DNA of 33,596 bases from NCBI GenBank assembly GCA_023665825.1, contig JAMPDE010000003.1:1-33596 (forward strand). The letters are read 5' to 3'. The DNA is from Alistipes senegalensis (lineage in GTDB: Bacteria > Bacteroidota > Bacteroidia > Bacteroidales > Rikenellaceae). Position numbers and translations under genes: made by a program. Positions 2,544 to 7,720 of the stretch are shown piece after piece; within the stretch, counting starts at the first letter, position 1, and the number at the start of each line of letters is the position of its first letter. The notes beneath the pieces were generated by a model. That model searched no databases. It was given only the letters and a program-made list of their open reading frames with translations, and had not been told where the DNA came from.

Positions 2544-3317
2544 TCAGATTTTGAAATGGTCCCGGGTCTTGGGAATGCGTTGTTGTGCGATGTCCGCTCC
2601 TTCGTTCTGCCGCAACCGCCGGCCGCACTGCACGACGATTTGCCGGGTGGCCGTCACGTCGGCATCAGCGTCATGGGCGTCGTCCAACTCGATGCCGAGG
2701 CGTTCGGCAACGAGTTCCAGCTTGTAGGAGGTAATGTCCGGCTCGGCGGCAAGGCAGAGCCGGGCAAGAGCAATGCTGTCCAAGTAACGGGGCTGGAAGT
2801 TGCCGTAGAAGTCGGTCGTACCGGCAAAGGCCTGTGCGAACTCTTTCTGCAAGCCGGCGTAGGCCATCATCTGTTGCAGGAAACCGATGTCGAACGGGAT
2901 GTTCTGCCCGATAAGTACCGGTTTGTAACGGGCACCTTTGCTCAGGGTGTGTCGGCGGACGAAGTCGATGACCTCCGCCGCCACCTGTTTCAACGCCACG
3001 CCCCGTGAGCGCAGCAGTTCCATCGTGATGCCGGTGTAGTTCAGTGCGACCGGTTCGTAGTCCATCGGCTCGGCGGTGTTTTCCTGTTCGACCTCCCGGC
3101 GGGTCTTCAATATTTTGCGCTTGGGCACTCCGCCCAACGGCTGTTTGTCGTAAGGGGCGATGTAGTTCACATACCGGCCTAACACCTCGAAGGTGTCGAG
3201 CCGCACGGCCTGCATGGCGATTTGCGTGCAGGCGCATCGGGTGCAGTCCAGACCGCCGGTCTCGAAGTCGAGCATGATGGCGGTATAGGTTCCTTGTTCT
3301 GTTTTCTGTGCTGTCAT
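2544..3317 (-). CDS. DnaQ-like DEDDh 3'-5' exonuclease (proofreading-type)
   Basis: The 257-residue protein contains the three exonuclease motifs of the DEDDh family: ExoI LDFETGG (catalytic Asp17 and Glu19), ExoII GQNIPFDIGFL (Asp143) and ExoIII HDADADV (His215 and Asp220). These bind two metal ions and remove nucleotides from the 3' end of DNA. The gene lies one guanylate-kinase-like gene away from the divided DNA polymerase III alpha, so the simplest role is the proofreading (epsilon-like) activity of the phage replicase. The loop between ExoI and ExoII is longer than in a minimal epsilon domain (about residues 50-95). It starts 1 base after the upstream stop. A role in recombination or degradation of host DNA cannot be excluded. 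Confidence 0.88.
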   Translation of the reverse strand: MTAQKTEQGTYTAIMLDFETGGLDCTRCACTQIAMQAVRLDTFEVLGRYVNYIAPYDKQPLGGVPKRKILKTRREVEQENTAEPMDYEPVALNYTGITMELLRSRGVALKQVAAEVIDFVRRHTLSKGARYKPVLIGQNIPFDIGFLQQMMAYAGLQKEFAQAFAGTTDFYGNFQPRYLDSIALARLCLAAEPDITSYKLELVAERLGIELDDAHDADADVTATRQIVVQCGRRLRQNEGADIAQQRIPKTRDHFKI

Positions 3318-3318
3318 G

Positions 3319-3834
3319 TTATCCTAATTGATTGATGATATACAATGCCTTTTCCTCGAACTCCCGTAGCGAGCTGTCGTTACGGATGACGGCGTCATAG
3401 GATTTGTCGGGCAGTTGCAGCCGCTCGGCGTCCCGGGCGATACGCTCCGGAGAGATGCCGCGCCGGCGCAGTTCGTCGGGCGGCGTGCGGAGCAGCACGG
3501 CGATGATGTGGAATCGTTCTCTGTATTGTTTGCGGAGCGCCACCAGCCCCTTTTCGTCGAGGACGTAGACGCAGCGCCCCATCTTCGGCACCTGGACGAG
3601 CAGGGCGAAGTATTCGTGGCCGCCGTATTGCGTGTAGGTCAGCATCTGTTCCCGAGGCGGTATCTCATGTTCGGAAATGAAGAAGTAGTCTTTCCCGTCG
3701 GTTTCGCCCTCCCGCCGGGGACGGGTCGTGTGGGAGACGATGACGGGAATGCCCAGTCGCATTCCCAAGTAGCAGGACAGGTGGGTTTTGCCGGTGCCGG
3801 AGTTTCCGACGATGGCGATGATGGTCGGTTTCAT
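3319..3834 (-). CDS. Guanylate kinase-like P-loop nucleotide kinase
   Basis: The chosen start ATG at 3834 overlaps the polymerase stop as ATGA and gives MKPTIIAIVGNSGTGKTHLS, with a Walker A loop GNSGTGKT at residues 10-17. A second diagnostic segment, SHTTRPRREGETDGKDYFF (about residues 36-54), matches the GMP-binding lid of guanylate kinases. The protein has 171 residues, shorter than the usual 200 or so of cellular enzymes. The expected activity is phosphorylation of GMP or dGMP (or another nucleoside monophosphate) for the phage dNTP supply. Its place between polymerase and exonuclease supports a role in DNA synthesis. The specificity is inferred, and a modified-base substrate remains possible. 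Confidence 0.82.
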   Translation of the reverse strand: MKPTIIAIVGNSGTGKTHLSCYLGMRLGIPVIVSHTTRPRREGETDGKDYFFISEHEIPPREQMLTYTQYGGHEYFALLVQVPKMGRCVYVLDEKGLVALRKQYRERFHIIAVLLRTPPDELRRRGISPERIARDAERLQLPDKSYDAVIRNDSSLREFEEKALYIINQLG

Positions 3835-6008
3835 ACGATGTGGATAAGGGTTGTTTTTGTACTTTGCAGGGTGTTCGTGCCGGAGTAGTCGCTGTATTTG
3901 ACCATGCCCGTCAGGATGACGATGCGGTCTTTCAGGGCGGAGATTTTGTCCCGGTGCGCCTCGCAGGTTTCGCTCCAGCAGACCATCTCCGCTATGTCGT
4001 TGTTTTGCTGGAGAGCCAGCTTGACGAACCGCTTCCGCTCGCCGGTCGTCCGGTCTTTGTAGGTGTGTTCGCTCAGCTCGGTGACGGTGGCGCACACGGC
4101 GGCACGCCTACCGTCGCCGGCAGGTTCGAGGACATCGTGCAGGCTCAGGTAGGAGGCTTTGCCTTTCACTAAGGCACGGGCGGGCGAGGTGTCGAAGATG
4201 CGGCGGTAGTCCACCGAGCCGATGCCGCTGACGGCGATTTGCAACCGGCTCCAGAAGTAGTGCTGTCCCACCGATTCCGCCGGGAAGTCTTTCTCCGAAA
4301 GCGTGAATCCCAGCTCCCGGGCGGCACGGACGAGCAGGCCGTAACGACCCGTCACGGCGTCGATGCCTTCCGTCTTGTCGAAGCATCCGGCCAGAATCAT
4401 GTTCCGCACGTGCCGGGCATTGACCGGCACCCGCACCGCCTCTTCGGCGTTGTCGGGGTCGTCCCAGTAGGCGTATTTCTTGAGTTTGTACCGGAATATC
4501 CGGTGGATGAACTGTTCGACGGAGGCGTAGGGACCGTTTTTCTCCCGCTCCCCGACGATGCAGGCGACGGCTTTGGCGCCCAACTGTTTGATGCGGCCGA
4601 GCGACCAGAAGATTTCGTCGGTGGCGTAGTCGGTGAAGAATACCTGCCGGGAGGTGTTGATTTCGGGCGGCACGATACGGGCTTCGGAGCAGAGTTCCAT
4701 CTCGGACATGAGCGTCGGAATCTCTTTGTCGTCGGCCCACTGTAACGCTACGGTGTAGAATGCCGTGGGATGGTTGGCTTTGAGGTAGGCGCCCACGTAG
4801 CTGGTAACGGCGTAGGCGGTGGCGTGGCTGGCGTTGAAGAGGTAGCCGCCGCCGGCTTCTATCATCTCCCAGATGCGTCCGGCATCCTCTTTCGGACAAC
4901 CTTTGGCGGCGGCACCCGTCATGAATTTCTCTTTCATGGCACGGATGGCGTCCACCTTTTTCTTGGAGATGAGTTTCAGCAGCCGCACGCCCTCCGCCAA
5001 CGTGAACCCGCCGACCTCTCGGGCCATCTGCGCCAGCTGCTCCTGGAAGACCAGCACGCCGTAGGTGTTTTTCAGGGCGTCGTAGGTACCCCAAAGGTAG
5101 ACGGGTGCCACCTCCCGACGGCGGCAGAGCAGGTATTTCTCCGCCGAACCGGAATCGAGGGTCGCCGGACGGTAGAGGGCGCTGGCGGCTATCAGGTCGT
5201 CGATGCACTCCGGACGCATGTCTTGCAGGAAACGGGTCATGCCCGGCGAGGAGAACTGGAAGACGTTCTGGGTGTAGCCCTCCGCCAAGATGCGGTAGGT
5301 CTTCTCGTCGTCCAATCCGCTGCGCACGATGCCCTCGAAGGTAAGCCCGGCATCGTATTCCCGGTTGCAGATGTCGATGACGGCCTGTATTTTCGACAGC
5401 TCCTTGATGCCGAGGCAGTCGTTTTTCAATAGACCCACTTCGTCGATGGAGTATCCGTCGAATTCGGAGATGAGCAGGTCGTCTACTCTCTTGATGGGCG
5501 TGTAGTCGAAGCATTCCATCGCCTCGCCGTCCTGCCGCTTGGGCGTGATGATGATGGCGGAGGCGTGTACCGAACCGCTGCGGGGCTGACCCAAGAGCGG
5601 ACGTATGTCCTCGATGACCCTCGGATAACGCCGGATGAAGTCCCGGACTTTCTTGTTGGTGGCGGCGAGCTTGAACAGGTCGGTCCACGTCATGTTGTCG
5701 TCCCCGAAGATGGCGGTGATGTAGTTCACCAAACTGACCGGCACCCGGTGTACCCGGCTGACGTCTTTGAGTACGGCTTTCATTTTGAGGGTCGTCAGCG
5801 TACCTGCGGAGAAGACCTGCTGCCGGCCGTCGGTGTTGTAGCGCCGTTCGAGGTATTCCTTGACCTCCTGCCGGCGGTCAGACTGGAAGTCGATGTCCAC
5901 GTCGGGAAGCTGGCCGCCGGCGCCCTGACGGTAGCCGTCGCCGGCAAAGGTGTCCGCTACCGCTGTCTTTTCCGGCAGGGTTTCGTATTCGATGCTGTGT
6001 ATCTTCAT
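3831..6008 (-). CDS. dnaE: DNA polymerase III alpha, C-terminal piece (catalytic aspartates, fingers, OB fold)
   Basis: The 725-residue protein begins with about 33 extra residues (MKIHSIEYETLPEKTAVADT and onward) and then enters the polymerase III alpha family exactly at the palm motif LPDVDIDF (residues 34-41), which holds two catalytic aspartates. The third is in LLKNDCLG (Asp197), after GSVHAS (145-150). The fingers region, a helix-hairpin-helix segment (HVRNMILAGCFD) and a C-terminal OB-fold (final 100 residues or so) follow in normal order. PHP and GRGS motifs are missing here and are encoded by the gene just upstream, whose stop overlaps this ATG (ATGA). Both products must assemble to form one active site. 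A clamp-binding peptide is not obvious. The split is discussed as a finding. Confidence 0.9.
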   Translation of the reverse strand: MKIHSIEYETLPEKTAVADTFAGDGYRQGAGGQLPDVDIDFQSDRRQEVKEYLERRYNTDGRQQVFSAGTLTTLKMKAVLKDVSRVHRVPVSLVNYITAIFGDDNMTWTDLFKLAATNKKVRDFIRRYPRVIEDIRPLLGQPRSGSVHASAIIITPKRQDGEAMECFDYTPIKRVDDLLISEFDGYSIDEVGLLKNDCLGIKELSKIQAVIDICNREYDAGLTFEGIVRSGLDDEKTYRILAEGYTQNVFQFSSPGMTRFLQDMRPECIDDLIAASALYRPATLDSGSAEKYLLCRRREVAPVYLWGTYDALKNTYGVLVFQEQLAQMAREVGGFTLAEGVRLLKLISKKKVDAIRAMKEKFMTGAAAKGCPKEDAGRIWEMIEAGGGYLFNASHATAYAVTSYVGAYLKANHPTAFYTVALQWADDKEIPTLMSEMELCSEARIVPPEINTSRQVFFTDYATDEIFWSLGRIKQLGAKAVACIVGEREKNGPYASVEQFIHRIFRYKLKKYAYWDDPDNAEEAVRVPVNARHVRNMILAGCFDKTEGIDAVTGRYGLLVRAARELGFTLSEKDFPAESVGQHYFWSRLQIAVSGIGSVDYRRIFDTSPARALVKGKASYLSLHDVLEPAGDGRRAAVCATVTELSEHTYKDRTTGERKRFVKLALQQNNDIAEMVCWSETCEAHRDKISALKDRIVILTGMVKYSDYSGTNTLQSTKTTLIHIV

Positions 6009-7720
6009 CGCCGTTCGTTTTGCAGGTGGAACAAAATATCCCGGTTGTCGAACAACACCTCGTCCCCAGCACGGAGCCGGTCGGCATAGACCGTGAGGCG
6101 GTTCCCGTTGCGCAGGACGACTAATTCGGCATCCCGGTCGAGACGGAGCGTCGTACCGTTGTCGAAACGGATGCGGACGACGTGGTCGGACAGCACTTCA
6201 TCGGTCAGACGGGTTACCCGGTCGGGATACAAGCCGGCACGCTCCGGCAGCAGGAAACGTTCGAAGAGCAGGTTGTACTGGATGGGGTCGATTAAGGTGA
6301 TGCCCAACAGGTAGAGCACGAGCGAACCGCCGGCGGAACCTCGGCCGCACCCCACGAGGATACCGTTGCGACGGGCCCAATTTACGGTGTCGTACTGCAC
6401 GAGCATGTAGTCGATGTTGTCGGTGGATTCGAGGATGTAGACCTCTTTTTCCAACCGCTTGCGGTATTCGTCCGCACGGTCTTGTGGAACTAACCGCCGG
6501 AAGCCCTCTTCGAGCAATTGCCGGAACATGGTGTGGCGGTCGCCGTAACGCTCCTGTTCCTCCGCCGTCATGTCGTAACGGGGCATGTAGTTGCGCTCGG
6601 TCTGGTAACGGGCTTCGGCACCCTCGGCGATTTCCACTGTATGGCGGCACACACGCTCGAAGAGTGCGTCGATGTCCCACCGATTGTCGTCGAATAGCGT
6701 GCGGAACTGTTCGTAGAGTTCGTCGACGTCTTTCAGGTATTGGTCGTCGCTCTGGCTGTGGGCGGCGCCCGTGGCGATTTTGTTCAGGACGATTTTCGTG
6801 CGGGCGTCGTCCCGGTCGGGATAGTGGCAGTCGGGAATCAAGACAGGCTCGACGAGGAAGCGGTCGGTTTCCCGGTCGTAGAAGGTATTGAAGAAGTGTG
6901 ATGTGGCTTTCAGCACTTCGGCATCCAACCGCTCGGCCTTGTATTCGGACAAATCGACCTGGTAGAATACTTGGTCGAAGGCCTCTTGCAGGGCTTTCAC
7001 GACGTGCCGGTTGCGCTCCATCCAGCAGGAGGAGAACTTGCCAAACACCAATACGTTTCCTTCGCCCCGGCGCAACAGTTCGGGCAGTTGGATGGTGGCA
7101 TCTCCGGCATCCACCATGACGGCTTTCTGGATGCGCAGCAGGTTCCGCAAGCCCCGCTGGCACTGGCAGTAGATTTTGACCTCGACCTGCTCTCCCTTGT
7201 GCGAGAGCGTGCAGGTGTATCCGAAGACGGGACGGATGCCGGCTTTGTCGCAGGCTTTCTGCAACGCCAGCGTGGCGCCCATCGTGTTGTGGTCGCAGAT
7301 ACCGAGGGCGGTATGACCCATCCACACGGCTTTGCGCACCCACAGCGACACGTCGCCCGAAGCGTTGAGCAACTCGTAGGGCGTATGGACGCCCAAGTGG
7401 ACGAATGGTGTCTGCCGCCGGCAGGAAACCCGCCGACCCACGTATTTGAGGATGTTCAATGCGAACCCCTCCCGAAGGGCGTAGTAGTACCAGTTGTCGC
7501 CGAACGGAAAGGCGACGTATTCGATGCCCTCGGCGAGCAGCACCTCCGGACGTTCCATCAGGTTGAATTCGGGTTCGCCGCCTTTCACGCTGAATATGGA
7601 TTCCACGCCGGAGAGGTCGGCGAGGAATACTTTGCCGAAGTCTTCGATTTCGACCACTTCCCGGTCGACGGGACGGTATGCGATGCGGTTTGCCTCCAAC
7701 CATTCATACAGTTCGTTCAT
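6005..7720 (-). CDS. dnaE: DNA polymerase III alpha, N-terminal piece (PHP domain and first half of palm)
   Basis: This 571-residue protein has an unusual leader of about 105 residues, then the PHP domain starting FVHLGVHTPYELLNA (His108, His112) with GICDHN (Asp143, His144) and PDCHYPD further on. It continues to the palm motif GRGSAGGS (459-466) and FERFLLPER. In ordinary DnaE the next residues are the catalytic PDxDxDF motif. Here the protein instead carries a 75-residue tail (497-571) with NGTTLRL and RLRAGDEVLFDN and then stops. The remaining polymerase is in the next gene. Several PHP metal ligands are kept, so residual PHP phosphoesterase activity is possible. The gene starts 2 bases from the end of the primase gene. 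Confidence 0.9.
   Translation of the reverse strand: MNELYEWLEANRIAYRPVDREVVEIEDFGKVFLADLSGVESIFSVKGGEPEFNLMERPEVLLAEGIEYVAFPFGDNWYYYALREGFALNILKYVGRRVSCRRQTPFVHLGVHTPYELLNASGDVSLWVRKAVWMGHTALGICDHNTMGATLALQKACDKAGIRPVFGYTCTLSHKGEQVEVKIYCQCQRGLRNLLRIQKAVMVDAGDATIQLPELLRRGEGNVLVFGKFSSCWMERNRHVVKALQEAFDQVFYQVDLSEYKAERLDAEVLKATSHFFNTFYDRETDRFLVEPVLIPDCHYPDRDDARTKIVLNKIATGAAHSQSDDQYLKDVDELYEQFRTLFDDNRWDIDALFERVCRHTVEIAEGAEARYQTERNYMPRYDMTAEEQERYGDRHTMFRQLLEEGFRRLVPQDRADEYRKRLEKEVYILESTDNIDYMLVQYDTVNWARRNGILVGCGRGSAGGSLVLYLLGITLIDPIQYNLLFERFLLPERAGLYPDRVTRLTDEVLSDHVVRIRFDNGTTLRLDRDAELVVLRNGNRLTVYADRLRAGDEVLFDNRDILFHLQNERR

Follow-up and report, generated by a model that had tools for sequence, protein, structure and literature searches.

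A splicing-dead, intein-like module at the break of a two-gene DNA polymerase III alpha subunit, and a candidate mobile cassette in its relatives

In a contig of Alistipes senegalensis (GenBank assembly GCA_023665825.1, JAMPDE010000003.1), the stretch analysed in full (positions 1 to 33,596 of the forward strand, 33,596 nucleotides (nt); hereafter the window) encodes the alpha subunit of DNA polymerase III (DnaE) in two genes, and the residues added on both sides of the break appear to be what remains of an intein that can no longer splice. On balance we favour a scenario in which this decayed intein module has been kept as a non-covalent trans-docking device at a homing hotspot.

The first gene (6005..7720, reverse strand, 571 amino acids) covers the PHP domain and the palm as far as the GRGS loop and the sequence FERFLLPERAG, followed by a C-terminal tail, and the second (3831..6008, reverse strand, 725 amino acids) supplies the DVDIDF motif, the remaining palm, the fingers, the HHH region and a weak OB-like end. 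The two overlap at ATGA (6005..6008, reverse strand), which joins the stop codon of the first to the start codon of the second. In Pfam the first protein matched PF02811 (E 9.5e-13) and PF07733 (E 2.7e-30), and it also matched Pol III alpha in the Protein Data Bank (PDB); the second matched PF07733 (E 3.5e-26), PF17657 (E 7.8e-36) and PF14579 (E 1.2e-14), with OB models reaching E 0.06-0.14 only. Together they carry the hallmarks of a C-family DNA polymerase, namely PHP, a palm with GRGS and the catalytic Asp motif, fingers and HHH. The Pfam domain DNA_pol3_alpha (PF07733) is itself divided by the break, with profile positions 3-100 running to residue 496 of the first protein and positions 99-260 beginning at residue 32 of the second. 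A first-pass annotation of the same DNA had placed the break between the GRGS loop and the catalytic aspartates, which these coordinates and the cut in PF07733 bear out, and the motifs it quoted were found as stated. Its count of 75 extra residues at the first C-terminus also stands (residues 497-571), while the 33 that it gave for the second N-terminus become 35 (residues 1-35), a number that depends on where the LP is placed. The N-module (6008..6232, reverse strand; LYPDRV...GDEVLFDNRDILFHLQNERR) is a 75-residue Hint-derived tail that resembles block B and has its catalytic T/H replaced (DRDA), and the C-module (5904..6008, reverse strand; MKIHSIEYE...VADTFAGDGYRQGAGGQLP) is a 35-residue head at the place of intein blocks F and G, followed directly by the catalytic DVDIDF (5886..5903, reverse strand) that opens the post-break sequence.

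Relatives were drawn from IMG/VR, phage records and one genome contig (L180), through scans that covered the best 80 of 483, the best 80 of at least 586, the best 80 of at least 586 among genome contigs and the best 80 of 89 matches. The genome-contig matches were mostly cellular dnaE: L180 was taken, L231 and L246 were inspected, and the others of L181-L259 stand outside the module counts. First-half tails of this type occurred in 96 fetched loci, some contigs being fetched twice, which reduced to 63 non-redundant tails. Contig L001 has an identical gene arrangement and a second protein 97% identical to the window's; since the same arrangement recurs there and in the 63 non-redundant tails, the split is neither accidental nor an error of assembly.

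Homology of the N-side tail to the intein/Hint block B region is well supported by these sequence comparisons. With tails and heads handled as anchored sets (mixed MAFFT alignments were discarded), a 57-row tail profile was compared by hhalign with 11 intein N-parts, three from intact-looking inteins of relatives' second DnaE genes (DnaE2) and eight from other loci, and gave a probability (P) of 94.6, E 6.9e-8 and a score of 45.5, which none of 200 column shuffles equalled (maximum score 14.9). The similarity covers the block B part only and begins about 15 positions into the tail profile. Nine PDB sequences matched the profile at E<=10, led by 2cw7 (0.0083), 9hth (0.018), 5o9j (0.019) and 2jmz (0.11); these four and 2lcj we take to be inteins, judging by title, inference or recall, and the other four are a designed SH3-like barrel, VompD and two KIF19 chains. 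In Pfam, PF14890 (Intein_splicing) matched most of the 57 tails (36/57, best 5e-05), ahead of DrmE_C (29/57, best 0.00015) and Hint (3/57). This model works in the present family, because the intact-looking mini-intein in the DnaE2 of L110 reaches 44 bits on it. The tail core holds two invariant and six nearly invariant residues across the 57 rows, and NCBIfam returned only weak mixed matches to tail and head members, some of them to intein-containing models. The proposal that the first piece ends in a Hint-like tail is thereby upheld.

The module has lost the residues on which splicing depends. At the columns of the TxxH motif the 57 tails read D (40/57), x, D (50/57) and A (52/57), with A, S or T at the fourth place in 57/57 and His in 0/57; in the 60 heads, Asn follows the penultimate-His place in none. 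Block A was not found in the tails, where the alignment to inteins begins only with block B, and the residue directly after ERAG in the window is neither Cys nor Ser. The loss of the TxxH His and of the terminal Asn is thus common to all members counted, and the absence of TxxH from 57 tails and of His-Asn from 60 heads excludes ordinary splicing; trans-splicing by the module is not expected from its sequence. The first-pass annotation had noted that Cys or Ser at position 1, TxxH and a terminal His-Asn pair are all missing, and had judged protein splicing unlikely; its observations hold for the window, and the wider set agrees on TxxH and His-Asn.

The head is less clear. It sits where intein blocks F/G would lie and retains part of their pattern, with His at the penultimate-His place in 25 of 60 heads and Ser at the +1 place in 41 of 60; its Hint-C identity is putative.

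Exchange of the module is indicated by a comparison with L002, in which DNA similarity breaks close to the predicted intein borders. On one side 82.5% identity extends to 8 nt past ERAG, and on the other 86.7% identity sets in 1 nt ahead of DVD, whereas 320 nt of the window between them (5905..6224) have no blastn similarity to L002, whose counterpart is 858 nt long and contains an HNH gene. Synonymous divergence (pS) between the two is 0.71 and 0.79 inside against 0.51 and 0.36 outside, from few sites. The boundary result comes from one pair and its near-copies, other listed pairs having more diverged flanks. The abrupt boundaries and the higher pS inside point to replacement of the whole module, and suggest that module and HNH gene together form an exchangeable cassette. 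In a spacing survey of 64 loci with both ends, the halves were no more than 250 nt apart in 27; 26 others had a helicase only in between, ten an HNH gene and one another short stretch, so that more than 250 nt, mostly whole helicase or HNH genes, separate the halves in 37/64. Genes of the NUMOD4/HNH type lie between the halves in L002, L005, L006 and L007 (L002 and L006 were missed by the pattern of the survey); the window has no endonuclease gene there. The helicase is Dda/PIF1-like, of about 440 codons, and was seen without HNH in 26/64 loci (for example L010, L012 and L016) and with it in four more. A DNA methylase gene accompanies the HNH genes between the halves in L005, L007, L015 and L107.

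The N tail is under purifying selection, looser than that on the palm. In eight comparable pairs, with tails of equal length and within set divergence limits, the ratio of nonsynonymous to synonymous substitution (dN/dS) had a median of 0.205 (0.057-0.399) in the tail and 0.068 in the adjoining palm; four disjoint pairs ranged from 0.06 to 0.40, and the window against L001 gave 0.07. Because these ratios are low, the tail is probably not debris. Docking that would hold the polymerase halves together non-covalently is plausible, and the likeliest present role of the module.

Named members inspected included Bacteroides phage BS-TP1, Cellulophaga phage phi13:1 and Tenacibaculum phage Larrie, and phages phiST and phi19:2 matched in the same way; in phi13:1 and Larrie the module is short, with about 50 + 20 residues. 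An unsplit version with the same insert, which the first-pass annotation had proposed to look for, is present in L032, a natural single open frame with the insert parts in the order N then C; this single contig is the sole such copy recognised among the fetched loci. In Chryseobacterium phage MA9V-3 the polymerase is encoded by a single uninterrupted gene that lacks the insert. Vibrio VA-RY-3 and Burkholderia Karil-Mokiny-1 were rejected as tail carriers, their palms being ordinary and uninterrupted. A plasmid search with the L032 insert region returned two records, both annotated dnaE and matched only beyond the insert. In Bacteroides phage DAC16 (L021) dnaE is unsplit, and the same palm loop carries another insertion, about 60 residues long, ahead of SLPDVD. 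Intact-looking inteins were seen elsewhere in the second DnaE gene of L110 (4591-7179), L012 (5983-9012) and L020 (968-3475), so the gene that carries the dead module probably also houses active inteins.

From these comparisons we infer the Hint identity of the C head, the order of events, the exchange of modules and the non-covalent docking. An intein-type element would have invaded the palm of a phage-lineage DnaE just upstream of DVDIDF, and the polymerase gene would have been divided in two, the first part ending in a Hint-N tail and the second starting with a Hint-C head; several relatives have an HNH endonuclease gene in between. Splicing would have been lost early, through disappearance of block A, replacement of TxxH by DxDA and loss of the terminal Asn, and the two tails may then have been retained as a folded module through which the two parts of the polymerase associate non-covalently. 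The site would have stayed a homing hotspot at which module and HNH gene were exchanged as cassettes.

Several results weigh against this scenario. The C-head profile (60 rows) is not significantly similar to intein C-parts when taken alone (hhalign P 1.7, equalled by 8/200 shuffles), and its two weak PDB matches include no intein, so that the resemblance of the second-piece start to C-terminal Hint strands, as put forward in the first-pass annotation, was not recovered. On PF14890, whose cut-off is 35.8 bits, the window's own tail scores 14.2 bits. L032 gave only P 24.8 against full inteins, again via block B, and a single-sequence PDB search of its insert brought up only arginine deiminase chains (E 0.35). 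The DrmE_C matches and the designed SH3-like barrel leave room for a generic small barrel, and fast divergence could partly account for the abrupt boundaries against L002. The fetched loci yielded no intact intein at precisely this position, though one may exist, because the scans covered only the best-80 sets. ERCG replaces ERAG or ERGG before seven of the 63 tails, which puts a Cys two residues before the tail; we take it as host-protein sequence. The earlier suggestion of a decayed split intein thus gains from the N-tail similarity, the catalytic losses, the HNH genes between the halves and the L002 boundaries, and loses on the similarity of the C head.

Among the alternatives, the one we take most seriously, while thinking it rather unlikely, is that the tails are the leftover and landing pad of HNH elements and dock nothing, the halves assembling via palm/PHP contacts. 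HNH genes do recur at the site, and the tail is looser than the palm and short in phi13:1 and Larrie; according to PMC2988022, the products of the split phage 25 genes 43A/43B co-purify and the polymerase is active. Yet the tail has a conserved core and is under purifying selection, and the module is also present in 54/64 loci that lack an HNH gene. We regard as improbable an unrelated SH3- or OB-like insertion that merely resembles Hint block B: the DrmE_C matches (29/57), the designed barrel in the PDB and the lack of intein similarity in the C head alone speak for it, whereas intein models are the best and most frequent matches of the tail, HNH genes lie between the halves and the similarity boundaries fall near intein borders. 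It is very improbable that the pieces are still covalently joined, by non-canonical splicing or by a frameshift at the ATGA overlap. The single frame of L032, if that contig is error-free, indicates that at least one relative tolerates the insert within a joined chain, but the TxxH His and the terminal Asn are absent in all members counted, and over 250 nt separate the halves in 37/64 loci.

A second layer is apparent in the heads of some relatives. In ten distinct loci (L015, L043, L047, L070, L077, L093, L098, L107, L305/L307 and L394; nine non-redundant in the first set, ten with L394), reading of the head reaches LP and then an immediate stop codon, and DVD resumes 7, 8 or 11 nt after the start of the stop, gaps that always put it in another frame. 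The DVD of these stop heads is always preceded by TCG, GCG, CCG or CCT; the apparent take-off and landing codons are identical in L070, and CCA/CCT in L098; in the remaining eight the take-off codon is CCG or CCA and the landing codon TCG or GCG. A hairpin directly ahead of the stop forms 9 or 10 of 10 pairs in nine stop heads, against a mean of 5.2 pairs in 57 open heads, of which L110 alone reaches 9, and random synonymous versions attain the observed pairing in 10 to 356 of 20,000. Two exact-pattern scans of IMG/VR, with patterns taken from these heads, gave eight matches, in seven known contigs and one new one (L394). The hairpin was rejected as a transcription terminator, as no T run follows it, and the genes were rejected as dead, as the second-gene bodies are open for 671-690 residues in all ten loci, one being ended by the contig end. 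The window itself has no bypass cassette, its head being open and in frame.

An HNH gene lies between the halves in 7/9 stop heads and 3/55 open heads, L002 and L006 being further open heads with HNH. L060 and L093 offer an empty and an occupied site, 97.3% and 98.2% identical outside the cassette: in L093, 659 nt comprising the HNH gene, a new head, the hairpin, the stop and the gap take the place of 98 nt of the L060 head. Likewise an HNH gene and a stop head are both present in L305 and both missing from L290; from the head onward they are 91% identical with an 8-nt length difference, equal to the gap length, and the hairpin of L290 is weaker. A quick DnaE2 tree requires ten changes to account for the ten stop heads, six of them forced by starred branches, and the heads cluster no more than shuffled labels do. 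The pattern would look like a mobile cassette that was repeatedly gained and lost.

Our preferred reading of the stop heads is ribosomal bypass, because one rule would explain gaps of 7, 8 and 11 nt, though for most of them re-initiation or plain frameshifting may operate instead. A GTG lies two to three codons before the motif in L043, L307 and L098; L015, L070, L093, L107 and L394 have a TTG or ATG 12-19 codons ahead of it, whereas L047 and L077 have no usual start codon before the motif in the body frame. Combining bypass with the docking module, we tentatively propose, as a possibility short of an expectation, a two-layer mobile site in which a splicing-dead docking intein has been repeatedly homed into by HNH together with a replacement Hint-C head (hairpin, stop, hopped 4- to 8-nt gap, LP into DVDIDF). 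If true, this would to our knowledge be the second natural endonuclease-tied bypass after T4 gene 60, and the first to be repeatedly gained and lost.

The window shares features with several known systems. Fractured genes with split inteins and a free-standing homing endonuclease were reportedly described by Dassa in 2009, a study cited in PMC6892783 and PMC10448857; the present case resembles them in its two-part gene, its facing Hint-like tails and the endonuclease gene between the halves in some relatives, and differs in that the catalytic residues are gone in every member counted here and that the window has no endonuclease. Cyanobacterial DnaE carries an active split intein at a different place; it too has two genes with Hint-like tails, but the module here is not expected to splice. 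The intact-looking DnaE2 inteins of L012, L020 and L110 also lie further downstream than this break. Interaction tails in the NrdA of Aeromonas phage Aeh1 are said to have been reported by Crona in 2011; as there, an endonuclease insertion breaks an essential gene whose pieces work (here by our proposal) without splicing, but the enzyme is another one, and we do not know the Aeh1 tails to be intein-derived. The Aeh1 nrdA gene is split by mobE (PMC2988022). In Pseudomonas phage MIJ3, according to PMC6892783, PolB is split at a split intein with an HNH gene between the parts; this too is a replicative polymerase, but it belongs to the B family and its intein has blocks A, B, F and G and the ending HNS, whereas ours is of the C family and splicing-dead. 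T4 genes 39-mobA-60 involve a 50-nt ribosomal bypass (PMC5009743 and PMC3014915). Ten relatives share with it a stop right after the last pre-break codon, a 5' hairpin, out-of-frame resumption and mostly an HNH gene upstream; they differ in a gap of 7, 8 or 11 nt including the landing codon and in take-off and landing codons that mostly differ, and the arrangement is absent from the window.

In the open-access literature, to which the search extended, this case did not come up under split DnaE with inteins in Bacteroides or Cellulophaga phages, under degenerate inteins as dimerisation modules or under endonuclease-linked bypassing outside T4. If the docking scenario is true, what was once a protein-splicing parasite now serves in the assembly of an essential replicase, and the way in which the halves of a split replicative polymerase stay together can be tested directly. 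Among the relatives, endonuclease sites occur both occupied and empty, some with an apparent ribosomal hop and some without it, and this natural series could turn T4 gene 60 from a single textbook curiosity into a comparative system.

Genes for a primase, a DnaB-like helicase, SbcC-like and SbcD-like proteins and tail proteins surround the polymerase, and because of these neighbours, together with an exonuclease and a guanylate kinase gene, the window looks like phage DNA. Within its bacterial family, the second half finds matches at E 1.5e-30 or better in 8/268 genomes, one of them its own, the other listed matches being mostly weak and cellular DnaE-like. Genes for an RNase_T-type exonuclease and a guanylate kinase follow the polymerase at 2544-4095.

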